A DNA stretch of 41,470 nucleotides from IMG/VR virus record IMGVR_UViG_3300010401_000022, positions 1 to 41,470 of that record; one strand, written 5' to 3'. Under the pieces are notes generated by a model. The model did not search any database. It saw only the letters and a program-made list of their open reading frames with translations, and was not told the origin of the DNA. Position 1 is the stretch's first letter. Each line of letters opens with the position of its first letter. Position numbers and translations under genes: made by a program. The DNA comes from a virus. This document shows, piece by piece, positions 8,180 to 41,470 of the stretch.

Positions 8180-8619
8180 GCGATCAGCCTCAAGCCAAGT
8201 TCGAAGGATGGGCGGTCGTCGAAGTGATGGGGCATCAGTCCTTCGCCGGCTACGTCACGACCGAGGCGTTTGGCGCGGCCATTCTGTTTCGCATCGACGT
8301 GCCGGCACTTGAGGCGCGCGAGCGGGTCACGAAGGCGCCCGGCTACATCAACGACCAGTACGCGCCGGCCGGCACGACAGTGCAGGAAGGCGCCACGCCT
8401 GGCTACACGAAGTTGTTCGGCGCCGGCTCGATCTACTGCATCACGCCGTGCTCGGAAGACTTCGCGAAGAAGGCCGTGGAGCGCTCACAGCCCCGACCGC
8501 TCATCAGCCTGCAGTTGCCGACGGCCGGAGCGCTGCCGGCGCCGATCGAGCCAGACGATGAGGACGACGAGGACAACCTCGACGGCGATGACGCCGAGAC
8601 GTTTGGAGGCCCGCAATGA
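8176..8619 (+). CDS. Conserved phage hypothetical protein upstream of ERF
   Basis: 147 residues. The N-terminal 100 residues form a compact, beta-rich pattern (FEGWAVVEVMGHQSFAGYV, ILFRIDVP, GAGSIYCITPCSED); the last 25 are very acidic (EPDDEDDEDNLDGDDAE). Proteins opening with F-E-G-W-x-V-V-E-x-M-G-H recur next to phage recombination genes. The acidic tail resembles the tails used by single-strand-binding proteins to recruit partners, which would suit its place directly before the annealing protein, but no OB-fold motif can be claimed. Confidence 0.75.
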   Translation: MSDQPQAKFEGWAVVEVMGHQSFAGYVTTEAFGAAILFRIDVPALEARERVTKAPGYINDQYAPAGTTVQEGATPGYTKLFGAGSIYCITPCSEDFAKKAVERSQPRPLISLQLPTAGALPAPIEPDDEDDEDNLDGDDAETFGGPQ

Positions 8620-9380
8620 CGGCCGGCGTCAAGGAAATGGCGCTCGTGGAGCAACCGCTGCCGCCGACCGGGCTCGTCCAGGTGATCGAGCGCATGGCGA
8701 GCGATCCGTCCGTGGACATCGACAAGTTCGAGCGGTTCATGGCGATGCACGAGCGGATGGTCGCTCAGCAGGCGCGCGCCGAGTTTTTTGCGGCATTCTC
8801 CCGGCTGCAGGGTGACATCCCGCAAATCACGGTGCTCACCGGCAAGGTGACGTCAGGGCCGATGAACGGCCAGACCTACGCCACAAACGAGGATATTCAG
8901 CGCGTCGTGCGCCCGCTCCTGCAGCAGCACGGATTCGCCCTCACATTCCGCACGGAGTTCCCCACGCCAACGAGCGTGAAGATTATCGGGCTCCTCGCGC
9001 ACAAAGGCGGCCACGCGGAGTCCACCGAGTTCGTCAGCGCAGCCGACACGAGCGGATCAAAGAACGCGATCCAGGCGCTCGGCTCCACGATCGCCTACGG
9101 CATTCGCTACACAACGCGGGCGCTCCTGAACATCACGAGTGGGGAAGTGGACGACGACGGGCAGCAGTCAGGCAAGCCGGAACCGCCAGAGGACTATCAG
9201 GCGTCCCTCGATCTGTTGTCGAAGGCAGCCGCCAACGGACAGAAAGCCCTCCGTGCTGAGTGGGAATCCACCTACAAGGTGCGCCGCGACATCTGCGATT
9301 ACATCCTCAAGCACGACAAGGCCAAGCATGAGGCGATGAAGGCGGTCGCGCAGGGCGTAGACAAAAAGGCGGTGCGTTGA
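8616..9380 (+). CDS. erf: ERF-family single-strand annealing protein
   Basis: 254 residues. ERF family pattern: YATNEDIQRVVRPLLQQHGFALTF near residues 88-111, a beta strand SVKIIGLLAHKGGH, and KNAIQALGSTIAYGIRYTTRALLNI near 149-173 followed by acidic EVDDDG. P22 Erf-type proteins bind single-stranded DNA and anneal complementary strands during recombination and genome circularisation. It overlaps its neighbours by about four bases and is paired with a YqaJ-type exonuclease just downstream, the usual two-component recombination module. Confidence 0.9.
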   Translation: MTAGVKEMALVEQPLPPTGLVQVIERMASDPSVDIDKFERFMAMHERMVAQQARAEFFAAFSRLQGDIPQITVLTGKVTSGPMNGQTYATNEDIQRVVRPLLQQHGFALTFRTEFPTPTSVKIIGLLAHKGGHAESTEFVSAADTSGSKNAIQALGSTIAYGIRYTTRALLNITSGEVDDDGQQSGKPEPPEDYQASLDLLSKAAANGQKALRAEWESTYKVRRDICDYILKHDKAKHEAMKAVAQGVDKKAVR

Positions 9381-10039
9381 TGGCCTTCACCGTCATTGAC
9401 GCCCCGCAACGTTCGCCTGAGTGGTTCGCTGCGCGCGCTGGCCGACTAACAGGATCGTGCGCTGGCGCGATGCTCTCTGAGCCGCCGAAGGGCAAGACGG
9501 AAACCGTGGGACGGCGCGATCTGCGGTTGAAACTGGCCTTGGAGCGCATCTGCGGCCGGTCCCTGGAGCGCGACCAGTTCACCAGCAAGGCGATGCAGGA
9601 TGGCCTCGATCGAGAGGATGACGCCCGCGCCGCCTACGAACTCGCGACGGGCAATGTCGTCTACACGACGGGCTTTCTGGCGCATGACACGCTCCAGGCC
9701 GGCGCAAGTCTTGATGGGCACCTTGGCGAGTTCGACGAACTCGTCTCGATCAAGTGCCGGCAGTGGGCCGCGCACTGGGACTGCGTGCAGGACGGCAAGA
9801 TCCCGAAGGCGGCCCTTGACCAGATGCGCCATGAACTTTGGCTGACAGGTGCGACCGCACATCATTACGTGTCGTGGAATCCGGACTTTCCGCCCGAGTT
9901 GCAGTTGCGGGTCAAGACATTAAAAGCGAGCGATCTTGAGTTGTCCGCCTACTCCCTCGCGGCGAAGTTGTTCCTGAACGAAGTAGAGGCGCAGGTGGTC
10001 GCCATGAACGCGCTGCGTGGCGAGGCGGTGCCGGCGTGA
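9380..10039 (+). CDS. YqaJ/lambda-Exo-type recombination nuclease
   Basis: 219 residues from ATG 9380, which overlaps the ERF stop (TGATG). N-terminal SPEWFAARAGRLTGSCAGAML is the signature opening of the YqaJ viral recombinase family; DREDDARAAYE and ASLDGHLGEFDELVSIKC follow. In lambda Exo the PD-(D/E)XK site is an Asp then Glu-x-Lys; here the Asp is in SLDG but the Glu-x-Lys position reads Ser-Ile-Lys. C-terminal AAHWDCVQDGKIPKAALDQMRHEL is typical. It would resect duplex DNA 5' to 3' for the ERF partner, if the altered site is active. Confidence 0.87.
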   Translation: MAFTVIDAPQRSPEWFAARAGRLTGSCAGAMLSEPPKGKTETVGRRDLRLKLALERICGRSLERDQFTSKAMQDGLDREDDARAAYELATGNVVYTTGFLAHDTLQAGASLDGHLGEFDELVSIKCRQWAAHWDCVQDGKIPKAALDQMRHELWLTGATAHHYVSWNPDFPPELQLRVKTLKASDLELSAYSLAAKLFLNEVEAQVVAMNALRGEAVPA

Positions 10040-10476
10040 AAGCCGACTCGCGCGACTTTCTAGCCTTCGTGGACGATGACGGCCGGTTAGGGGTGTCTGA
10101 CCGCACGGGCTTTCGCGCCTATCTGCGGCAGTTCGCCGGGAAGAACGTCATCGTGTCTGTGAATGAGCCGTCGAAGAAGCGCAGCCTCGCGCAGAATCGT
10201 TGGCTATGGGGTCAGGCGTTGCCGCTCATCGCGGAGCATTGCGGATATGACCGGCATGAGCATGAACGGCTGCACTATGACCTGTTGTCCGTCCGATTCG
10301 GCACAACCGCCGTAGCGCCATTGATTACCGGCGCTCCCCCTCGTATCGTGCCGACGCGGACGAGTTCAGAGCTTACCACGGCGGAGTTTTCAGACTACAT
10401 GGACTGGCTGACACGCTACGCTGCCGAGACGTTTGACGTGATCTTGCCGCTGCCTGATGAATCGAGAGTTGCATGA
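10036..10476 (+). CDS. NinB-like recombination mediator
   Basis: 146 residues, the same length as lambda NinB (Orf). GTG start at 10036 overlaps the preceding stop (GTGA). Signature parts: KKRSLAQNRWLWGQALPLIAE near residues 46-66 (the conserved R-S-L-x-Q-N), then HERLHYDLLSVRFG, and LTTAEFSDYMDWLTRYAAE toward the C-terminus. Lambda Orf binds single-stranded DNA and helps load the annealing protein in place of RecFOR. The gene order ERF, nuclease, NinB supports this role. Confidence 0.84.
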   Translation: MKADSRDFLAFVDDDGRLGVSDRTGFRAYLRQFAGKNVIVSVNEPSKKRSLAQNRWLWGQALPLIAEHCGYDRHEHERLHYDLLSVRFGTTAVAPLITGAPPRIVPTRTSSELTTAEFSDYMDWLTRYAAETFDVILPLPDESRVA

Positions 10477-11613: not shown

Positions 11614-12324
11614 ATGACCCGACAGATTCTCAATCGTTGGACCAACGCCGTGATATGGAGCGGCGAAGCCGAAACCGTCCGAGACGCCATTCTGGCGGCC
11701 TATGCCAGTGGCGCGAACCTCCGTGGCGCGAACCTCCGTGGCGCGGACCTCGGTGGCGCGGACCTCGGTGGCGCGGACCTCCGTGGCGCGAACCTCCGTG
11801 GCGCGAACCTCTGTGGCGCGGACCTCGGTGGCGCGAACCTCGGTGGCGCGGACCTCCGTGGCGCGGACCTCCGTGGCGCGAACCTCTGTGGCGCGGACCT
11901 CGGTGGCGCGAACCTCGGTGGCGCGGACCTCCGTGGCGCGGACCTCCGTGGCGCGGACCTCCGTGGCGCGAACCTCCAGCCCATTCGCGACGACCTGTGG
12001 GCCGTGCTATCGAGTGCGCCGGCCGAAGTCCCGGCGCTGTTGGAGGCGCTGCGCTCGGGGCGCGTGAACGGCTCGACCTATGAAGGCGAATGCGCGTGTC
12101 TCGTGGGAACGATCGCGAACGCCCACGGATGCGCCTACGACGCACTGCCCACGCTCAAGCCGAACGCCGGCCGACCGGCCGAACGATTTTTCCTTGGCAT
12201 CAACACGGGCGATACGCCCGCGACGAATCAGTTCTCTAAGCTCGCGGAGGAATGGATCATGGCCTGGCACACGCGGATGGTCGCGGCCTACGGGCAGAAG
12301 GCGCCAGAGGCGGCGAGCCTGTGA
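11614..12324 (+). CDS. Pentapeptide-repeat protein
   Basis: 236 residues. Residues 1-32 are an ordinary N-terminus ([15 protein letters not shown]); residues 33-122 are 18 consecutive pentapeptides of the A-(N/D)-L-x-G type, predicted to fold as a right-handed quadrilateral beta-helix; the C-terminal 114 residues form a separate domain including a short conserved-looking stretch ([19 protein letters not shown]) and a [11 protein letters not shown] helix. Pentapeptide helices can mimic the charge of duplex DNA, as in MfpA and Qnr, which act on gyrase; that this one does so is inference. It starts directly at the HNH stop. Confidence 0.88.
11710..11979 (+). repeat. Eighteen 15-bp tandem repeats coding pentapeptides
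   Basis: 18 units of GGCGCG(A/G)ACCTC(C/G/T)GT or its last-unit variant. Only two positions vary: the first base of the Asn/Asp codon and the first base of the final codon (Arg, Gly or Cys). 11800-11874 and 11875-11949 are identical 75-bp blocks, so the array grew by duplication of five units at a time. The repeat opens all frames, giving artefactual Val-Ala-Arg-Thr-Ser readings. Confidence 0.95.
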
Positions 12325-15652: not shown

Positions 15653-15922
15653 ATGAGCACGCAAGCCGATCAAAACCTCGCGCGCGTGCTTCTCGCGGCA
15701 ATGAGTGCGGAAGTCCAATCCTTACAGGACGAGGCCGATGTCGCCAGCGTGGAAATCAAAACGGCGGCTGAGTATCACCGTGGTCGCGCGAGCGCATTCG
15801 CACAGACGCGAAGGATCGTTCGAAGATTCGACATCGCGGTTCGTCGCTATGGCGATGCGGCGATCGGGCCAATGAAATACCACACTAGCCAAAAACTGGC
15901 GAAGCGTCGGAGGCCCCGATGA
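15653..15922 (+). CDS. Small hypothetical protein
   Basis: 89 residues. The first two thirds are helical (ADQNLARVLLAAMSAEVQSL), followed by a basic end (KLAKRRRPR). GAGGAG lies upstream of ATG 15653. It overlaps the nucleotidyltransferase gene by four bases. Family unknown. Confidence 0.68.
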   Translation: MSTQADQNLARVLLAAMSAEVQSLQDEADVASVEIKTAAEYHRGRASAFAQTRRIVRRFDIAVRRYGDAAIGPMKYHTSQKLAKRRRPR

Positions 15923-16821
15923 CCGCCCCCAAGGCTGAGCCGAACGTCCTGACGGATTCTCGGCAGGGCACGGACGCCGCGGCGCCGAACGACCGCACGT
16001 GGGTCGAGAGCGCGACGATCCTGCGCTGCGAAGTCGGAAGCAGCCTGCACGGCATCGCGGACGGCACGCCGAGCGATCGAGACGAGATGGGCGTGTGCCT
16101 GGAGCCGTATCAGGCGTGCGTCGGCCTTCGCTGGCAATTCGAGCAGCACGTTCACCGGACAGCAGCGGCGCGCGAGGGTCGTCATGACGCGCCGAGTCAG
16201 CCGGGCGATCTCGACCTAACGATCTACAGCTTGCGGAAATGGGCACGGCTGGCCCTCGACGGGAATCCGTCCGTGCTCCTGCTGCTGTTCGCGCCCGACT
16301 CGCACACCGTCAAGTGCGATACACGCGGGCAGGCGTTGCGCGACCTGGCGCCCGCATTCGCATCCAGACAGGCCGGGCGGCGGTTTCTTGGCTATTTGCA
16401 GGCCCAGCGTCAGCGGTTGCTTGGCGAACGGGGACAGAAGAATGTCAACCGCCAAGACTTAGTGGACCGTCACGGATTCGACACGAAGTATGCCGGGCAC
16501 ATGATGCGCCTCGGCGTGCAGGGTATCGAGTTCTTGGAAACTGGCCGACTGACGCTGCCAATGGCCGACCAGTGGCGGCTGCGCGTGCTCGCGGTGCGGC
16601 AAGGTCAGGTCGCGCTCAATGACGTGCTGACACAATGCGGCGAAGTCGAGCAGCGGCTGAAGGACTTGATCACGACGTCGCCGCTTCCAGACGAACCGGA
16701 TTACGCGACCGTCGAGCAATGGGTGCTCGAAACGTACTGGCAGCACTGGCAGGCAACCTACGGGCACGCACTCGTGCTCGAAACCAATCGAAAATGGGCC
16801 GATAGGAGAGCGAATGGCTAA
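15919..16821 (+). CDS. RlaP-type nucleotidyltransferase (PF10127-like)
   Basis: 300 residues. GSSLHG near residues 40-45 and SDRDEMGVC near 52-60 form the GSxxxG...SDxDxxG signature of the polymerase-beta-fold nucleotidyltransferases, with the two Asp as metal ligands. Downstream DLDLTIYSLRKWARLAL and KYAGHMMRLGVQGIEFLETG match the RlaP family, found with RNA ligases or in phages. It would transfer nucleotides to RNA or another acceptor; substrate unknown. No RNA ligase or kinase is visible nearby. Confidence 0.84.
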   Translation: MTAPKAEPNVLTDSRQGTDAAAPNDRTWVESATILRCEVGSSLHGIADGTPSDRDEMGVCLEPYQACVGLRWQFEQHVHRTAAAREGRHDAPSQPGDLDLTIYSLRKWARLALDGNPSVLLLLFAPDSHTVKCDTRGQALRDLAPAFASRQAGRRFLGYLQAQRQRLLGERGQKNVNRQDLVDRHGFDTKYAGHMMRLGVQGIEFLETGRLTLPMADQWRLRVLAVRQGQVALNDVLTQCGEVEQRLKDLITTSPLPDEPDYATVEQWVLETYWQHWQATYGHALVLETNRKWADRRANG

Positions 16822-22278: not shown

Positions 22279-22494
22279 CTATGCTGTCGGCGCTTCCCCT
22301 GACGCCGAGCGTGCGAACGCCAGCCGCACGGCATCATCGGCCAAGATCGCATCGCACAGCGCCGTCCGGTCGGCCGGCGTCATGTCCGGATGGACCGCGG
22401 CGATCATCGCACCAATCTTCCCGGCGACGTCCACGCCAATGCCGATGAGCACCTGGGCAATCTGAATCCAGGCTTGCGCGCGTGATAGGTCCAT
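22279..22494 (-). CDS. Small hypothetical protein, last gene of lysis block
   Basis: 71 residues. An amphipathic N-terminus (RAQAWIQIAQVLIGIGVDVA) followed by soluble helix (PADRTALCDAILADDAVRL). ATG 22494 shares its A with the preceding stop (TAATG), so it is coupled to the membrane protein gene. Function unknown. Confidence 0.68.
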   Translation of the reverse strand: MDLSRAQAWIQIAQVLIGIGVDVAGKIGAMIAAVHPDMTPADRTALCDAILADDAVRLAFARSASGEAPTA

Positions 22495-23267
22495 TACTGG
22501 CCTCCCAACTTGAGCCGGGCTCCCGTGACTTGGGCGCTCAACTGTGCGGCGGTGCGATCGTTCAGGTCGAGTTCCAAGACGAGCGATTGCAAGATCGCCA
22601 CGGCATTCAAGAGCAAGGACAGGTCCGGCTTGCCGCCCGCTTTGACGAGTTCCGTTGCGGCCGTGTCTAACGTGAACGCCACGACGAATTGCCGCTGGAT
22701 CGCCTGATGTCTGGCATCGGTCAGTTTCGCGACCGCCGCCAAGGGCGCCGTGCAGTGGGTGTGATCGGCCGGAGCCTTCGTGATATCTGCCACGCCCCAA
22801 CAGAGTTGCGCTTCCAAGTCTTGGGCGACGGCGAGGGAACCGTGGGTGTATTGGATCACGCGGATCGGGCCATTGGCGCTACAGCCCGGCAGCAGGAGCG
22901 ATGCGGCGAGCAGAATCCCCACACTGCCCGACGCCAAGGGGAATTTCTTCTCGAGCCCGCTAAAGATCGTCGCGAAGTCTTTCACTGAGCCGGCCGCCGC
23001 GCCCGCTGCCGCGATGATGACTTGGGTTTTCAGGTCGCCATAGTGCAGAAAGATGTTCGCCGTGATCGCGCCGGAAAGCGTCGTCAGAAACGCATACATG
23101 AACCGGACAAACACAGCCACGAGCGGCGACACGACTTGAATCACCACATTCGGCACACCCGAAGGGGTAATGCCGGTGGTGCCTTGCACAATCGCCCCAT
23201 TGCCCGTCCCGCCAATCACGGTCACGGGCACAGGTAGCATCGGCTCAGTCTTGATCTCATCGGCCAT
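22494..23267 (-). CDS. Membrane protein with an internal lipobox
   Basis: 257 residues from ATG 23267 (GGAG upstream; GTG 23270 is an alternative). Hydrophobic spans at about 43-68 and 82-98, then LASGSVGILLAASLLLPGCSAN at about 112-133, which has the form of a lipoprotein signal with an L-L-P-G-C lipobox although it is in the middle of the protein. The C-terminal 125 residues are soluble and helical. Near the endolysin and small membrane proteins, so a holin-like or spanin-like role is possible. Confidence 0.64.
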   Translation of the reverse strand: MADEIKTEPMLPVPVTVIGGTGNGAIVQGTTGITPSGVPNVVIQVVSPLVAVFVRFMYAFLTTLSGAITANIFLHYGDLKTQVIIAAAGAAAGSVKDFATIFSGLEKKFPLASGSVGILLAASLLLPGCSANGPIRVIQYTHGSLAVAQDLEAQLCWGVADITKAPADHTHCTAPLAAVAKLTDARHQAIQRQFVVAFTLDTAATELVKAGGKPDLSLLLNAVAILQSLVLELDLNDRTAAQLSAQVTGARLKLGGQ

Positions 23268-23279
23268 CACGGCACTCCC

Positions 23280-23741
23280 TTATGCAAACTTGAAAAACGT
23301 CTGATGCCCCAAGGTGCAAAGCGGCGTCTGCCCCTGCAGCATCTTGACCGTGCCCGAGAGCCACAGCGCCGTCGTGACATAGTGATTCGCGCCGCCCGTC
23401 GGGTCTACCCCGACCCCGCCGCGCACCTGATCGACCAGGGCGAGGAGTTCTGTCCTGTGGCTTTCTTCGGCCCCCTGGGGTGGCTCGGTGAGGAGCCGTT
23501 CCGCAAACGCATACGTCTCATCCGTGTTTGGACTGCGTTCCCACCAGCAGGAGAACTGCCAGGGCGTCAGACAGACGCTCCGCCAACTGGTGCCCCACCA
23601 GGCCGGATGCATCACCCGGTTCCGGATGACCCACAAGACGCCCAATTGCCCCGCTAAGGGTTCCCCGCGGGCCTCGCCATAGAGCGTGCCGCAGGCCGCC
23701 GTGCGGTCACTGAGCCGGCTGCGGATGTCTTCGGATGTCAT
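23280..23741 (-). CDS. SleB-type cell-wall hydrolase (endolysin)
   Basis: 153 residues. TLYGEARGEPLAGQLGVLWV followed by IRNRV and a CLTPWQFSCW motif are the signature of the Hydrolase_2/SleB family: the Glu of Y-G-E-A-R-G-E is the catalytic acid. The protein cleaves peptidoglycan (SleB-type enzymes are lytic transglycosylase-like or amidase-type). No signal peptide is seen, so release needs a holin; the small membrane genes upstream are candidates. ATG 23741 shares bases with the previous stop. Confidence 0.88.
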   Translation of the reverse strand: MTSEDIRSRLSDRTAACGTLYGEARGEPLAGQLGVLWVIRNRVMHPAWWGTSWRSVCLTPWQFSCWWERSPNTDETYAFAERLLTEPPQGAEESHRTELLALVDQVRGGVGVDPTGGANHYVTTALWLSGTVKMLQGQTPLCTLGHQTFFKFA

Positions 23742-23896
23742 GCGTGCCCATTGCCGTTCTGCACTTCTTTCGTGAGCGCGCGAAATTGCTCTTGCTGCCA
23801 GCGGTGCCGGCGTCCTTCCCGCAACCATTGAAAGAGAAAGCCCACCACCGTGGTGGCGAAAATGAACAGGTGGCCCCACAGGGTTGGATGATCCAT
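23738..23896 (-). CDS. 52-residue membrane protein before the endolysin
   Basis: ATG 23896 (sharing its A with the previous stop, TGATG); stop overlaps the endolysin ATG by four bases. One span (LWGHLFIFATTVVGFLFQWL, about 6-25), then a basic helical tail (REGRRHRWQQEQFRALTKE). Size, single span and position make it a holin or holin-partner candidate. Confidence 0.62.
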   Translation of the reverse strand: MDHPTLWGHLFIFATTVVGFLFQWLREGRRHRWQQEQFRALTKEVQNGNGHA

Positions 23897-24153
23897 CAGA
23901 ACCGGCGTTTCGTCGTCATCTCATGCGCTAAGGTTTGGAATTTCGCTTCCATCATGTCCATCCGCTCAAACAGGGTGGCGCCGCCGTTGCTCCCGATGAG
24001 CTTTTCAATGCTGAGGATCACCCGTTCAATCCGCTTGAGCCAGCGATAGAACCAGACGAGGCCCCGCCAGGCGATCCCCACAAAGAGCCCCATCCCCGTG
24101 AGCGCGGCCACGACTTGCCCCGAGGTAGTGATCAGCCCCAACAGAGCAGGCAT
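23896..24153 (-). CDS. Holin-like small membrane protein
   Basis: 85 residues. One long span (SGQVVAALTGMGLFVGIAWR to about residue 38), a basic cytosolic helix (RWLKRIERVILSIEKLI) and an acidic end with ERMDMMEAKFQTLAHEMTT. It overlaps the metalloprotease gene by 22 bases. This is the best candidate for the class-III-like holin that releases the endolysin; unproven. Confidence 0.6.
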   Translation of the reverse strand: MPALLGLITTSGQVVAALTGMGLFVGIAWRGLVWFYRWLKRIERVILSIEKLIGSNGGATLFERMDMMEAKFQTLAHEMTTKRRF

Positions 24154-24830
24154 ACCAGCCCCAGTCCGACCGCGTGTGGTTGCCGCACCCGCCATACTTC
24201 CCTGGGCGCCCAATATAACCGGCCCCCATCCGCGGGCGGAATCGGGATCAAGCTCATGGTCGTGAGCGCCCAGCCGACCCACCCCGCCACCATGAGCGGG
24301 TGCCACGCCCGCCCCTGCGTCAGCAACCGCACGATGCCCGGTTGCCAGAACTGCCCCATGACATGCGCGCCCGCGAGCGGCACCGACCACCACGCGCCCA
24401 CGACCGTGCAGATAGCCGTGACGGCAAAACCGGCCATCAGGCCCGACCAGGCCACATCCCATCGCGCTAAGGGCGACGGATACGGCCCGCGCACACGCAG
24501 GACGGCGCCAGCCAAGCCCAAGGCCGGCAACCAGAGCCAATGCACGGCGTGCGCGAGACTGATCGGCACGGGCAAGAGCCACGGGCCACGCGTCGGAATC
24601 TGGTAGCGTCGGCAGGCCCACCAATGGCCGCCTTCATGGGCGAGGATAATCGCAAAGACGGGCACGGTATACCAGAGGGAGAGGCGGAGATTCGCGCCGC
24701 CCCACGCGACGGGCCGCACGCCGTGGGCCATCGTGAACATCGCGGCGTAAATGACGCCCGCGCGCCCAATGGTCAGGACGCCTGTGCCCCACAAGACCGC
24801 GAGGATGAGGCGTCTACCCGCCGTCACCAT
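24132..24830 (-). CDS. M50/site-2-protease-like intramembrane metalloprotease
   Basis: 232 residues with about six membrane segments. ILAHEGGHWWACRRYQ near residues 62-77 contains the zinc-binding HEGGH (H65-E66-x-x-H69); WDVAWSGLMAGF near 124-135 is the conserved second-core segment; and HPLMVAGWVGWALTTMS, then LIPIPPADGGRLYW near 194-207 supplies the third ligand Asp in a P-x-x-x-x-D-G motif (Ser where Asn is common). Together these are the full S2P active-site set. It lies between a zinc-like small gene and holin-like genes. S2P proteases cut membrane proteins, for example anti-sigma factors; the target here is unknown. Confidence 0.87.
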   Translation of the reverse strand: MVTAGRRLILAVLWGTGVLTIGRAGVIYAAMFTMAHGVRPVAWGGANLRLSLWYTVPVFAIILAHEGGHWWACRRYQIPTRGPWLLPVPISLAHAVHWLWLPALGLAGAVLRVRGPYPSPLARWDVAWSGLMAGFAVTAICTVVGAWWSVPLAGAHVMGQFWQPGIVRLLTQGRAWHPLMVAGWVGWALTTMSLIPIPPADGGRLYWAPREVWRVRQPHAVGLGLVCLLCWG

Positions 24831-25044
24831 GTTTGTCGCCAAAGCCGTCGCACTTGATCCCTTGCGGGCCACAGGCCGCCTGCCGTTCGTCTTCCGTGAA
24901 GCCGTTGTCCGCCCACCACTGGGCATCGTTACAGAGGTCACAGGTAATGCCGCCCGGATCGGCGTGAGGGCCACCATGATGCCGGTAAAGGGCTTCGGCC
25001 AAACGCTGCTGCAGATCGTGATCAGGACGATCAATCGGGGACAT
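24814..25044 (-). CDS. Small CxxC protein upstream of the metalloprotease
   Basis: 76 residues, AGGAG upstream of ATG 25044. CDLCNDAQWWADNGF with a first HHGGPH cluster and C-terminal CGPQGIKCDGF gives a possible zinc site. It overlaps the metalloprotease start by 17 bases, indicating coupled translation. Function unknown. Confidence 0.65.
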   Translation of the reverse strand: MSPIDRPDHDLQQRLAEALYRHHGGPHADPGGITCDLCNDAQWWADNGFTEDERQAACGPQGIKCDGFGDKHGDGG

Positions 25045-25053
25045 GGGTCGCTC

Positions 25054-25386
25054 CTATCCGCCCTTCTTCGGGGTGGCCGTCAAGCTGCCCGTGGCGGGGT
25101 CAAACGTGAAGCCGGGGTGATTGCCTTCAATGAAGGCTTTCGTGGCGTCGATTTCCTGCCGGATGGTTTTCTCGTTCGCGGCTTGCTCGAGCGGTCCCAA
25201 GGCCGTCTGACACTCGCGATTTTTGCGGATCGTGTCGATCAGTTGCGTCTTGAGGGCATAGTTCTCGACGCGGAGCCGTTCCAAGTCGCTCAGCGCGGGA
25301 GGTTCGTCGGCGCGGACCATCGTAAACGCCGCCATCAGCAGCAGAATGATCAGGAGAAATCCGAGGGCTTGCAGCGCCGCCTTCAC
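25054..25386 (-). CDS. Membrane-anchored coiled-coil protein (i-spanin-like)
   Basis: 110 residues, GTG 25386 overlapping the tail-fibre stop (GTGA). N-terminal signal-anchor (ALGFLLIILLLMAAFTMV, about 7-24) followed by LSDLERLRVENYALKTQLI, a heptad-like periplasmic coiled coil, then a Cys near residue 60. The topology is that of an inner-membrane spanin (lambda Rz), which with an outer-membrane lipoprotein fuses the membranes. It lies at the head of the lysis block. The matching o-spanin is not obvious. Confidence 0.6.
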   Translation of the reverse strand: MKAALQALGFLLIILLLMAAFTMVRADEPPALSDLERLRVENYALKTQLIDTIRKNRECQTALGPLEQAANEKTIRQEIDATKAFIEGNHPGFTFDPATGSLTATPKKGG

Positions 25387-26624
25387 TGTTTGTCCTCCAA
25401 CTTCCGAATGCGCGCCTCTTGGTCCTGCACGACTTTCAACAGCGCAGCTGTCACGCCGTCGTAATGGATGCCGTTCAGTTCGCCGCGGTAGAACGTCGAG
25501 AAGGCATTGCGGTTGTCGCCCAAGCCGGCCGCCGCGGCATAGACGTCATCCGCAATCAGGCCGGCGTGGAGTTCTCGGCTCGTCTTGTCGAGGAACGTCA
25601 CGGGCTGGAACTGGAGCACCGTGCGCGCCGTGTCGAGGCTCATGGGCGTAATGGCGTCCTTCAACCGACGCAATGAGGAACAGGTCGTGAGCGTATCTAA
25701 TCCGCTAATCGTCGTCGTGTCGTAACAGAGCGTATTGGAGGTGGCCGAAGCGAGCGTCTTGACGCCATAATGCCCGCTCGTGTCCCATGTCGCCTGCGCC
25801 ACGCTGGCATTGAGCAAGGAGAAGACGGTCGATCCGGACGGCAATTGGATCTGCCAGGTAGACGTTGTGCCGCCCGTGCGTTGGAAGTTCACGAGGAGAT
25901 GGCTGGTGCCGCTCTGCTCGAAGTAGGCCAAGACCGACGTCGCCGCGTTGTAACTCGCGACAAAGGTCGCATCGATCGTCCCGGTCACGCGCATCGTGCC
26001 AATCACGTCCAGCGTTTTGCCAGGGGCGGTCGTGCCAATCCCGACCGCCCCTGTAAATGCGGCGGCATAGTTGTTACTGGCGCCGGAGGGGGCCTCGATC
26101 GTTATGCCATAGCCGTTCGTAACCGTGCCGCCCAGCACGATCGTCGGCATCCGCAACCCGATCGCATTCGTAATCGTCGCGTTGGTCCCGGCCGAGGGGG
26201 CACCGGCAATGTTCAGCGTGGCCGCCGTCGTCAGGATGGACGCCCCGGCAAAGGCATAGGTCGGAGAGGTGATGCGATAGGCCCGCTGTAAGGCTAAGGC
26301 GCCGGTCGAGAACTGCACGACGCGACTAATGTTGAACAAGACATCCGTAGCCTCTGTGCCCGCGGCGAGTGTCGTATCCGCGGGGCCGGTGAGCGAGAAC
26401 AGCGACGGCGATCCAGAGGTCGATCCGGCCGGCGTCAAGACGACTGGCCCAGCGGCAATCCCCCCCGTGCATCCCGTAGTCGTGCCCACCGCACAGCCAA
26501 TTAAGGCACTCGCCGCGGTCGTGTCCGTCGTCGTGAGGGTCGAGACGGCGAGCGGCCGCGCAGCCACTTGGGCCAGCGCCGCGGCGGGCCAGAGGAGCAA
26601 GGCGAGGAGGATCAATCGCTTCAT
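25383..26624 (-). CDS. Tail fibre/spike with Sec signal and S74 chaperone
   Basis: 413 residues. Starts with a clear signal peptide (MKRLILLALLLWPAAALAQ). The middle is Thr/Ser/Ala/Gly-rich beta-structure, typical of fibre shafts. The C-terminal 100 residues (SSLRRLKDAITPMSLDTA, VTFLDK, HAGLIADDVYAAAA, HYDGVTAALLKVVQDQE) are the endosialidase-type S74 intramolecular chaperone, which cleaves itself after trimerisation. It is probably the receptor-binding fibre or spike. A Sec signal on such a protein is unexpected. Confidence 0.85.
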   Translation of the reverse strand: MKRLILLALLLWPAAALAQVAARPLAVSTLTTTDTTAASALIGCAVGTTTGCTGGIAAGPVVLTPAGSTSGSPSLFSLTGPADTTLAAGTEATDVLFNISRVVQFSTGALALQRAYRITSPTYAFAGASILTTAATLNIAGAPSAGTNATITNAIGLRMPTIVLGGTVTNGYGITIEAPSGASNNYAAAFTGAVGIGTTAPGKTLDVIGTMRVTGTIDATFVASYNAATSVLAYFEQSGTSHLLVNFQRTGGTTSTWQIQLPSGSTVFSLLNASVAQATWDTSGHYGVKTLASATSNTLCYDTTTISGLDTLTTCSSLRRLKDAITPMSLDTARTVLQFQPVTFLDKTSRELHAGLIADDVYAAAAGLGDNRNAFSTFYRGELNGIHYDGVTAALLKVVQDQEARIRKLEDKQ

Positions 26625-27367
26625 GACAACCGTTTCAGGCCAAGGCCCCAGGCATACCCAGCCCCGCCGCCCGTGACCTTCAGCTTCACGCAGTAGCTTT
26701 TCGGCGTGCCCGCCGCGGCAAAGGTGATCGTGCTGGAGGTGACGAGGGCGCCCACCGAGCTCGAACTTGAGATCGTGACCAGCGCCGTATCCGGCGAGCC
26801 ATCGCTGAGATTCACGAGCGCCGCCGAAGTCGTGCCGCCGCCCGTCGCGCCCAGCATCCCCTGCAAGGCATAGGTGCCCAGCAGATTCGCGCTATCGATC
26901 GTGACAATCGACGAGCCAGCGTGGCACTTGTCGAACGTCGCGCCACTCGGGTAACTCGATGAAACGACGTAGGCATCAGCCGTGCCAAAGAACGGTTGGG
27001 CCGTGACGCCGATCAGGATGTTCGCCAGCGCGACGGACGAAATGTTGTCCTGCGACCAGACGGTGACGCCAGCCGACGTCTTCAAGATAAACAAGTAACT
27101 GGCCGCTTGGAGGTAGACGACCGCGCGCCCGGCTGAATCCAAGACGATCGGATTCGCGTTCTGATGCCCCGGCGCCAGATCGACGTTGTTGTAAGTCGCC
27201 AGGGGCGTCGTGGTGCCCGCGACGTAGGTGTAGAGGAAGCCGCCGGCCAGCGGCACGCCCGTGTTGCTGAAGAACTGGACCACCGGAATTGGCATGACCG
27301 TGCCCTGGCCGTGGGCCGGGCCGATCGCCAGTGCGGCGAGCAGAAGGGCGAGGAGCAGGCGCTTCAT
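26621..27367 (-). CDS. Virion-type protein with Sec signal peptide
   Basis: 248 residues. Signal peptide MKRLLLALLLAALAIGPAHGQ, then PVVQFFSNTGVPLAGGFLY near 27-45, a motif common in phage tail-fibre and spike N-termini (F-x-D-x-x-G-x-P-L-A-G-G). The rest is beta-rich (SAALVNLSDGSPDTALVTIS). Its ATG overlaps the stop of the preceding gene. Likely a tail-fibre or head-binding component. Only its export signal is unusual. Confidence 0.74.
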   Translation of the reverse strand: MKRLLLALLLAALAIGPAHGQGTVMPIPVVQFFSNTGVPLAGGFLYTYVAGTTTPLATYNNVDLAPGHQNANPIVLDSAGRAVVYLQAASYLFILKTSAGVTVWSQDNISSVALANILIGVTAQPFFGTADAYVVSSSYPSGATFDKCHAGSSIVTIDSANLLGTYALQGMLGATGGGTTSAALVNLSDGSPDTALVTISSSSSVGALVTSSTITFAAAGTPKSYCVKLKVTGGGAGYAWGLGLKRLS

Positions 27368-36277: not shown

Positions 36278-36653
36278 GGACGTTGTGGGCGGCGAGCGCC
36301 GCCCCACTCCCGGCCACGGCGAGACTCAAGCCGATGGCCCACTTCGGATGCGTGTCGCGCAAACGCCAGATCAAGGGAATGGCCGCGGCCGTGAATACGG
36401 CCTTCGCGCCCAAGACGAGCGTCGGCCGATTCCCAAAGACGGGATTGGCTTCATAGCCGCCATGACGCACGCCCCAGACGGTGGTCGCGGCATCGGCGGA
36501 TTGTCCTGCCACCGAGGCGATGAGCATCCCCGTCAGCACGCGATGCGACACGGGACGCGATTGGCCGAACGCCCGATCGACAACGACGCCGGCCACAAAC
36601 GCGAGGACCAGCGCGAGGATCAAGAGCGAGCGGCGAAAGAGTTTGTAGGACAT
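36264..36653 (-). CDS. Small multi-span membrane protein in tail module
   Basis: 129 residues with a signal-anchor (LLILALVLAFVAGVVVDRAF), then GQSADAATTVWGVRHGGYEANP with a further two or three hydrophobic helices (VLGAKAVFTAAAIPLIWRL, WAIGLSLAVAGSGAAL). The D-A-x-T-T-x-x-x-x-R-G-G-x-E-A-N-P pattern resembles small DUF5658-type membrane proteins. It is encoded between structural genes, yet is unlikely to be a virion component. Shares one base with the upstream stop (TAATG). Confidence 0.66.
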   Translation of the reverse strand: MSYKLFRRSLLILALVLAFVAGVVVDRAFGQSRPVSHRVLTGMLIASVAGQSADAATTVWGVRHGGYEANPVFGNRPTLVLGAKAVFTAAAIPLIWRLRDTHPKWAIGLSLAVAGSGAALAAHNVHAVR

Positions 36654-38065
36654 TACTGAATCCCGATGCAGTGATAGGCGTAGATGTCGCCTGTGGCTGG
36701 AGCGGTGCCGTTCGTCACCACCGTGATCGCCGTCGTGCTCGTGACCGAGGTGAGCACGGTCTTACCCACCGCCATGCCGGCTTTGTTCATCCACACGGTG
36801 CAGGCGGGGGCGGCGGCCCACGTGGAAGCAAAGGTGATCTGAAAACCAGACGCAGGCGTCGTGCCAAGCGTGACTGAGCCGGCCGTGTCACTTGATCCCG
36901 TCGAGAACGTGCCGTTCCCCGTGCCGCAACTGTTCGCGGCGGTGCAAGTTGGGGTGCCCGTCATCTGGAACTTGACGAGCGAGGAGTTCGCGTTGTTAGC
37001 AACCGCCAAGACACCATCGGTATTCAGATTCATCTGCGTCTTATTGGCGGCAGCCCCTCCTCCGACAATGACGTTGCCGACTAGGATGTTGCTTGTCGAT
37101 TGGATATTCGCCGCCTGCAACGTGACCGCGACTGCCAAGCCGCCCTTCTGCACATAAAACTCATCCGTCGCGCCGCCCGCGCCGCCGAGGATTTGGAAGT
37201 AGCGACTGCTCGAGGCGCTGGCGGTTTCGGTGAAGGCGTAGGAATTGCCGATGAACGAGACGCCGCCTGCGTTCCACGTCTGGGTGCCGCTGATAAGGGG
37301 GTTCGATGTCGTGACCGTGCCGCCTGTCGCGGTATAGAGTGGCGACACCACCGACGTGCCGAAGTAGCCGGTGCGGAAGGCTGTGCCGGACGCGCCGAGA
37401 TCCCCAGCGTTATTCGACGCCGCCGACAGGCTCGTCACAGTCGGTGTGGCGGTGCAGGTGGGAGGGGCACCGCCCGCCAATACGGTGCCCGCCGTGCCGC
37501 AGACGACGGTCGTCGGCGTGCCCGTCGTCGTCGTGTTGTAGACCAAGCCCGTCGCCAGCGCCCCGAGGACTTTGGCATTCGGCAACCGGACATCGGCCGT
37601 CGCAATCCAGTAGGTGGCCGAGAGATCCGGATGGCTCACGCCACTCGGGGAGAGGCTTTTCCCGGCCGTCGCGCTGAGCGTGGCTGTTCCGCTCGTATAG
37701 GATGTCATCCGCACACGCAGACCAGTGATGCCGCTATTGGCGATCGAGAACTGGCCGCCCGCGGTCGTCGTGCTGCCGGCCGTCCAATCAGCCAAGTTGA
37801 TGACGGACGTGGACACCCAGGTCGAAGAGGTCGCCCCCTGCGTCTCAAACGTCAGTGTGCCGCTGAACGTCCCAGTGATCTGAACCGTGATGCTGGAATA
37901 CTGCGTCACGTCCCACACGGCACAGTCGGTGTTCTGAATGCAGGCCGAGCCTGAGGCTGCCGCGCCGGCCGTCTGCGGACTGGGCGCGATCTGATTGGGA
38001 TTCTGCGCTGCGGCCAGCGCGGGCCAGAGCGCCACGAGCAGATAGAGAATCAAGCGTCGTCGCAC
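36653..38065 (-). CDS. Virion-type beta-rich protein with Sec signal
   Basis: 470 residues, GTG 38065 with AAGGAG nine bases upstream. Signal peptide (RRRLILYLLVALWPALAAAQ), then VWDVTQYSSITVQITGTFSG and many Ala/Thr/Gly beta strands, with a C-terminal domain (FQITFASTWAAAPACTVWMN; TSVTSTTAITVVTNG) of a type found in phage fibres and in bacterial surface proteins. Expected to be a fibre, head or tail appendage. Third protein in this genome with an export signal next to structural genes. Confidence 0.72.
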   Translation of the reverse strand: MRRRLILYLLVALWPALAAAQNPNQIAPSPQTAGAAASGSACIQNTDCAVWDVTQYSSITVQITGTFSGTLTFETQGATSSTWVSTSVINLADWTAGSTTTAGGQFSIANSGITGLRVRMTSYTSGTATLSATAGKSLSPSGVSHPDLSATYWIATADVRLPNAKVLGALATGLVYNTTTTGTPTTVVCGTAGTVLAGGAPPTCTATPTVTSLSAASNNAGDLGASGTAFRTGYFGTSVVSPLYTATGGTVTTSNPLISGTQTWNAGGVSFIGNSYAFTETASASSSRYFQILGGAGGATDEFYVQKGGLAVAVTLQAANIQSTSNILVGNVIVGGGAAANKTQMNLNTDGVLAVANNANSSLVKFQMTGTPTCTAANSCGTGNGTFSTGSSDTAGSVTLGTTPASGFQITFASTWAAAPACTVWMNKAGMAVGKTVLTSVTSTTAITVVTNGTAPATGDIYAYHCIGIQ

Positions 38066-41096: not shown

Positions 41097-41470
41097 TTAG
41101 GCGCAGAGGACGCGCACGCTGCAGTTGTCGTTGTAGAGGTTGCCGAAGCCGATCACCGTATCGAAACGGTTGATCATCTTCGCCGTGATCGGATCCCACG
41201 CGCGCACGAACCGAACCCCGAGGCCCGTCTCCGGGTCGCGCATGATCGACGCCATCTCGACCGCCTTGGGCTTGTCGAGCGTCACGCCGACGAGCGCAAA
41301 GGCATCCGTCGTGAAAATCAGCCCCTGCTTACCCTGCTTGCCGTTCGGCGAGCTCGTGCCGGGGAACAGCGTGACCGTCGCCCCGGTCAAGGGCAGCGCG
41401 TCCACATTCTGATACTGCGAGCCCGGCCCGATGATCGGCGGGTCGATCTGGACCGTCGCCGCCGAGCCCA
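41097..41470 (-). CDS. Major capsid protein, P22 gp5-like, C-terminal part
   Basis: The remaining 3' part of the coat gene; the ATG at 41405 is internal. GKQGLIFTTDAFALVGVTL, MRDPETGLGVRFVRAWDPIT and DTVIGFGNLYNDNCSVRVLCA are typical of the C-terminus of P22-type coat proteins. The frame joins the segment at 1-994. Confidence 0.93.
   Translation of the reverse strand, partial: GSAATVQIDPPIIGPGSQYQNVDALPLTGATVTLFPGTSSPNGKQGKQGLIFTTDAFALVGVTLDKPKAVEMASIMRDPETGLGVRFVRAWDPITAKMINRFDTVIGFGNLYNDNCSVRVLCA
41348..41470. repeat. Terminal direct repeat, right copy (circular overlap)
   Basis: Identical to bases 1-123; see the left copy. Confidence 0.93.

Follow-up and report, generated by a model that had tools for sequence, protein, structure and literature searches.

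A small podovirus carries a gene which is almost certainly a site-2 protease (S2P) by descent, and next to it the gene for a short Cys-containing protein (Cys protein) that accompanies the S2P gene in a second, distant virus as well. The window, i.e. the whole stretch of 41,470 nucleotides that was analysed, is the complete genome of this podovirus.

The S2P gene and the genome that carries it

The minus-strand frame from 24830 to 24132 is free of stop codons and encodes a protein of 232 residues (window S2P). It contains HEGGH at residues 65–69, WDVAWSGLMAGF, and SLIPIPPADGG at residues 193–203. The first-pass annotation had described three S2P/M50 elements in this order, and the open frame bears this out. 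Its assignment to family M50 was confirmed by a Pfam search, in which residues 56–207 matched Peptidase_M50 (PF02163) with E = 4.8e-14 and 52.7 bits, the curated cut-off being 27.2 bits. All zinc ligands (H65, H69 and D201) and the catalytic E66 are kept. The ligands are invariant in 40 of 40 aligned homologues, and D201-G202-G203, containing the third zinc ligand Asp of the [N]xxPxxxxDG pattern, aligns with all 40. Invariant positions across the 41-sequence alignment are H65, E66, H69, P83, P87, D125, G130, H177-P178, P196 and D201-G202-G203. When the profile of the first S2P alignment was compared with the PDB, it matched mjS2P (8e-8), SpoIVFB (4e-5) and RseP (2e-3). The GC content by codon position (0.66/0.58/0.83) is coding-like and resembles that of the portal, terminase and Hc3 genes.

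Neither the PHROGs nor 50,697 phage records (tblastn) gave a match to the window S2P at E up to 1. With the single sequence, phmmer found chance matches only among solved structures, and a scan of viral contigs found none; a plasmid search gave one weak haloarchaeal match. The observation of an S2P goes far beyond what chance would give, since a homologue occupies the corresponding place in the genome of an independent virus (E 2e-21; see below). Profile, motif and homologue support the claim of an S2P-like metalloprotease encoded by a phage, as does the fold weakly, and the record is a complete phage.

An AlphaFold model calculated from 41 sequences is of moderate quality (mean pLDDT 76.0, pTM 0.74). 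It contains five long helices (residues 4–35, 45–75, 120–148, 178–192 and 209–231) and a low-confidence stretch around residues 86–105. The ‘about six spans’ of the first-pass annotation agree with the six peaks of the hydropathy plot but not with the five helices of the model, so the count is uncertain. HEGGH lies inside helix 45–75, in a block with pLDDT above 90, while the DGG block has a pLDDT of about 58. The top Foldseek match of this moderate model was mjS2P, a weak match (E 0.42, probability 0.80, TM 0.36–0.38). The other PDB matches listed with raised probability were E. coli RseP and A. aeolicus RseP, and a Megaviridae peptidase M50 came second in a BFVD search; none of these is significant. 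A first model from 16 sequences was poor, and the fold search with it yielded nothing significant. The predicted fold agrees with the sequence evidence and does not alone show the zinc site.

Bases 1–123 and 41348–41470 are identical. This exact 123-nt terminal direct repeat marks the record as the complete genome of a podovirus, with terminal redundancy, and not as host sequence. Host contamination as the source of the S2P gene was rejected on the basis of the repeat and the surrounding phage genes. The coat gene appears to span the record ends. The genome encodes a P22-like portal, terminase, Hc3 head closure, an ejection protein and tail proteins. Its late genes are on the minus strand and run across the record ends, the S2P gene being located between a fibre gene and an endolysin gene (Table 1). 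Searches of Pfam and PHROG revealed no significant match for the product of 23896..24153, and no family for those of 25054..25386 and 22494..23267.

Table 1. Genes of the late region around the S2P gene.
Feature	Position	Strand	Evidence
Lysis-end membrane protein, 257 aa, lipobox-like LLLPGC; candidate substrate	22494..23267	-	Sequence; three hydrophobic segments
Endolysin-like SleB/Hydrolase_2 cell-wall hydrolase	23280..23828 (start 23828 ATG or elsewhere)	-	PF07486 3.2e-11; phrog_938 endolysin 2.4e-10
Single-span holin-like protein, 52 aa; candidate substrate	23738..23896	-	Sequence only
Small holin-like membrane protein, 85 aa, with a hydrophobic N-terminal stretch and a charged tail; candidate substrate	23896..24153	-	Sequence
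S2P-like intramembrane zinc metalloprotease, 232 aa, EGY-type core	24132..24830	-	PF02163; alignment with 40 homologues; L034 homologue
Cys protein, 76 aa, GITCxLC...WWxxN...CGPxGxxC; conserved partner gene	24814..25044	-	Homologue L034:9203-9463
Inner-spanin-like protein, 110 aa, N-terminal hydrophobic helix and likely coiled-coil; candidate substrate	25054..25386	-	Sequence; signal-like N-terminus
Tail-fibre-like protein, S74-like chaperone end, Sec-type signal sequence	25383..26624	-	PF13884 8e-4, just under cut-off; phrog_1330 tail
Tail protein, upstream border of module	26621..27367	-	61% to G013 and 45% to G014 proteins (best-segment identity)

Sec-type signal starts were seen on several late virion-like proteins of the minus strand (25054–25386, 25383–26624, 26621–27367 and 36653–38065). 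In the related genome G014, five proteins have such signals; in G013, the homologue of the 26621 protein starts without one. For a podovirus, the export of tail-like proteins is unusual. On the plus strand, the window encodes a pentapeptide-repeat protein, which may be a DNA mimic (11614–12324; PF00805, 8e-35; its gene consists of about 18 nearly identical units of 15 nt), and RlaP, an RNA-repair protein of the polymerase-beta family (15919–16821; PF10127, 5.8e-27), here in a phage. A recombination set is located at 8616–10476 (+), consisting of an ERF superfamily protein, a YqaJ exonuclease and a NinB-like protein, the latter below cut-off. No tRNA was found in the window.

A conserved partner gene and its distribution in viruses

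The Cys gene is located directly upstream of the S2P gene. We scanned 2.9 million viral contigs (IMG/VR) with the S2P alignment and found one other locus, L034, on a contig of 41,190 bp (IMGVR_UViG_3300027533_000012; genome G056). Two more S2P scans with other patterns led to this contig and no other, and it was again the only one when the Cys protein was used in an independent scan. The L034 S2P has 279 residues, keeps the canonical NLLPYGSFDGG and scores 57 bits in Pfam. The homologue of the Cys protein was found with E 4e-8 and a z of 10.7 versus shuffled sequence. A 127-nt terminal repeat in this record indicates a complete podovirus, whose homologues of the window portal (28%), Hc3 (36%) and large virion protein are distant.

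In both phages, the end of the late operon carries the S2P and Cys genes, located after a tail protein gene; a protein similar to the 26621..27367 product has the corresponding position in G056. The window S2P gene has overlaps at both ends, one of 17 nt between its start and the Cys gene and one of 22 nt between its stop and the start of the holin-like gene (23896..24153). At L034, two small genes are inserted between the Cys and S2P genes, and the S2P start overlaps the preceding gene by 4 nt. These overlaps suggest coupled translation. Conservation between the two phages is clear for the Cys gene alone and not for the membrane genes in the neighbourhood. Next to the S2P gene at L034, no endolysin could be recognised. 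Placement ‘in the lysis cassette’, as the gene had been described, holds for the window, where an endolysin gene follows at a short distance; at L034, the S2P gene is linked with the Cys protein and the late-operon end, and not with any recognised lysis genes. Neither the conserved partnership with the Cys protein nor the active-site Asn-to-Ser change treated below was part of the first-pass annotation.

A match to M50 was absent from 16 viral records related through the large virion protein or Hc3 and from 15 related through the coat protein; many of these are fragments, while G001, G013, G014 and G309 measure 41–45 kb. The Cys profile had no match in 20 of the relatives, in a search that held no positive control. 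In a scan of five full records, the Cys motif was present only in the two with S2P. As the other relatives searched are without both genes, the pair behaves as linked cargo; on two cases, it is sporadic and travels together. The gene had been called uncommon for a tailed phage, which fits the lack of a PHROG family or of any match among the phage records and the single other locus in IMG/VR. The viral scans use short degenerate patterns, and rarity is therefore a statement on what these patterns can see.

A phage-borne S2P is not unprecedented. S2P genes of other types occur in a few large, unannotated phage records, LR756511 (595 kb), LR745206 (635 kb) and MT835496 (159 kb), which likewise contain M50 in a viral record; two of these three were placed in the tree and, unlike the window S2P, fall together with the CBS type. 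Peptidase M50 is also listed among viral genes in a river-water study (PMC12993620). Many RseP-like matches in the phage collection were not counted, since they look like bacterial contigs (Listeria, Acinetobacter, Salmonella). A literature search retrieved no paper joining ‘phage-encoded’ with ‘intramembrane protease’.

Lost invariant residues and possible functions

At three positions, the window S2P departs from a residue that all 40 homologues share, the phage copy of L034 among them: N193S, P131L and G198P. The first of these affects the conserved Asn of NxxPxxxxDG, an auxiliary active-site residue and not a ligand. By motif, it corresponds to Asn394 of RseP, which is found in the active site together with His22, Glu23, His26 and Asp402 (PMC10024687). 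Loss of the Asn lowers the claim of activity, not that of descent. In a tree with poor taxon sampling, the two phage copies group together with a support of 0.97; the branch of the window S2P is 1.93 long, compared with 0.97 for the L034 copy. The window copy evolves fast. Intact zinc ligands and Glu make activity likely, and the loss of three invariant residues, among them the active-site Asn, makes it less than certain. Judged from its sequence, the window S2P is probably an active protease. The missing Asn, the two other lost residues, the long branch and a short C-terminus would also fit a pseudo-protease, able to bind membrane helices but not to cut them, or a decaying gene. We consider this quite unlikely in view of the fully retained zinc ligands and catalytic Glu, the open frame with its tight overlaps and the coding-like codon composition.

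The best explanation, which we put forward tentatively and with rather less than even confidence, is a late S2P that times lysis by acting on a substrate from the lysis region, with the Cys protein as its regulator or adaptor. The enzyme would be made late in infection, insert in the host inner membrane and cut single-span membrane segments using zinc and E66. Its main substrate may be a small single-span membrane protein of the late or lysis region, such as a holin-like or spanin-like neighbour, the removal or trimming of which would set the time of lysis; the Cys protein would regulate the S2P or serve as its adaptor. Such a substrate is suggested by the late location of the gene, by the membrane topology of its product and by the overlap with genes for small membrane proteins. 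It is our best guess because host RseP has been reported to block phage lysis: multicopy E. coli rseP prevents lysis by the lysis protein of phage PP7, and the authors suggest that RseP degrades the PP7 protein (PMC10229422). Taken by itself, the location of the substrate in the lysis region is doubtful. It is possible, with similar reserve, that an EGY-type protease and a dedicated zinc-ribbon-like partner form a two-gene phage module not described before, which would control the timing of lysis, or remodel the inner membrane of the host, via regulated proteolysis of a single-span protein.

All other readings were ranked below the lysis-region substrate, as was the pseudo-protease. Cellular S2Ps act on host regulators, RseP on RseA for example, and late activation or shutdown of an envelope-stress or phage-defence response by cleavage of an anti-sigma factor or other single-span stress regulator would match both this known role and the sporadic occurrence of the pair, as expected for a host-directed gene. 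It is unlikely given that the gene is in the late operon and not in the early region, and that its relatives are of the EGY and not the RseP type; the protein has no PDZ domain, and the NCBIfam RseP model matches it only at E 0.18. S2Ps which clear remnant signal peptides are known as well (RseP, RasP), and signal-like N-termini at 25386, 26624 and 38065, and by eye at 27367, could point to clearance or processing of the signal sequences of phage proteins exported late. This is improbable, as such signals are still more numerous in G014, which lacks an S2P, and as the L034 protein that corresponds in position to the 26621–27367 product is without a signal. Least probable is superinfection exclusion or counter-defence, in which the S2P would cut a membrane receptor, the ejection protein of an incoming phage or a membrane-anchored defence protein: sporadic two-gene cargo at an operon end resembles competition genes, but no known exclusion or defence system of such make-up was found in the searches made.

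Intramembrane proteolysis is a basic chemistry of cellular signalling. A small podovirus with its own S2P, to which a partner gene is linked in two viruses distant from each other, would imply that phages use this chemistry to control events at membranes. The list of adjoining membrane-protein genes is short, which makes the substrate question directly approachable.

Comparison with known site-2 proteases

By sequence, the core of the window S2P appears closest to the EGY type among the S2Ps sampled, not to the RseP or CBS types; the cellular sample consisted of cyanobacteria only. The sole cellular match of a genome scan was a Spirulina EGY-type S2P gene, and a search of cyanobacterial genomes gave many more S2P matches, the best with 37% over residues 51–208. 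With this sampling, a closer cellular relative may exist outside the cyanobacteria, and the EGY likeness does not name the host. EGY-type S2Ps (plant EGY1; cyanobacterial L018 and L021) have a core in common with the window S2P at about 26–31% identity, including HExxH, GxxGA, the FDxAx[AS]GPxAG region, HP and PxxxxDGG. In contrast to them, the window S2P is without the N-terminal soluble region, which in L018 carries a GNLR motif: just 64 residues precede HExxH, and GNLR is absent. Further differences are the shorter C-terminus, an insert of about 12 residues after LLPVP, and the three replacements N193S, P131L and G198P. Since the GNLR region is missing, we describe the protein as having an EGY-like core and do not class it as an EGY protein.

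M. jannaschii S2P (3B4R), SpoIVFB and RseP have the M50 zinc chemistry in common with the window S2P. The RseP-like and CBS-type members tested are 20–24% identical to it, and the phage copies are far from both types in the tree; unlike these, the window S2P contains neither a CBS nor a PDZ domain. E. coli RseP, which suppresses phage lysis when overproduced (PMC10229422), is likewise an S2P, but it is a host enzyme acting on the lysis protein of an ssRNA phage, whereas the window S2P is encoded by the phage. The enzyme family is known; its carrier and partner are unusual, and the conserved Cys partner was previously unrecognised.
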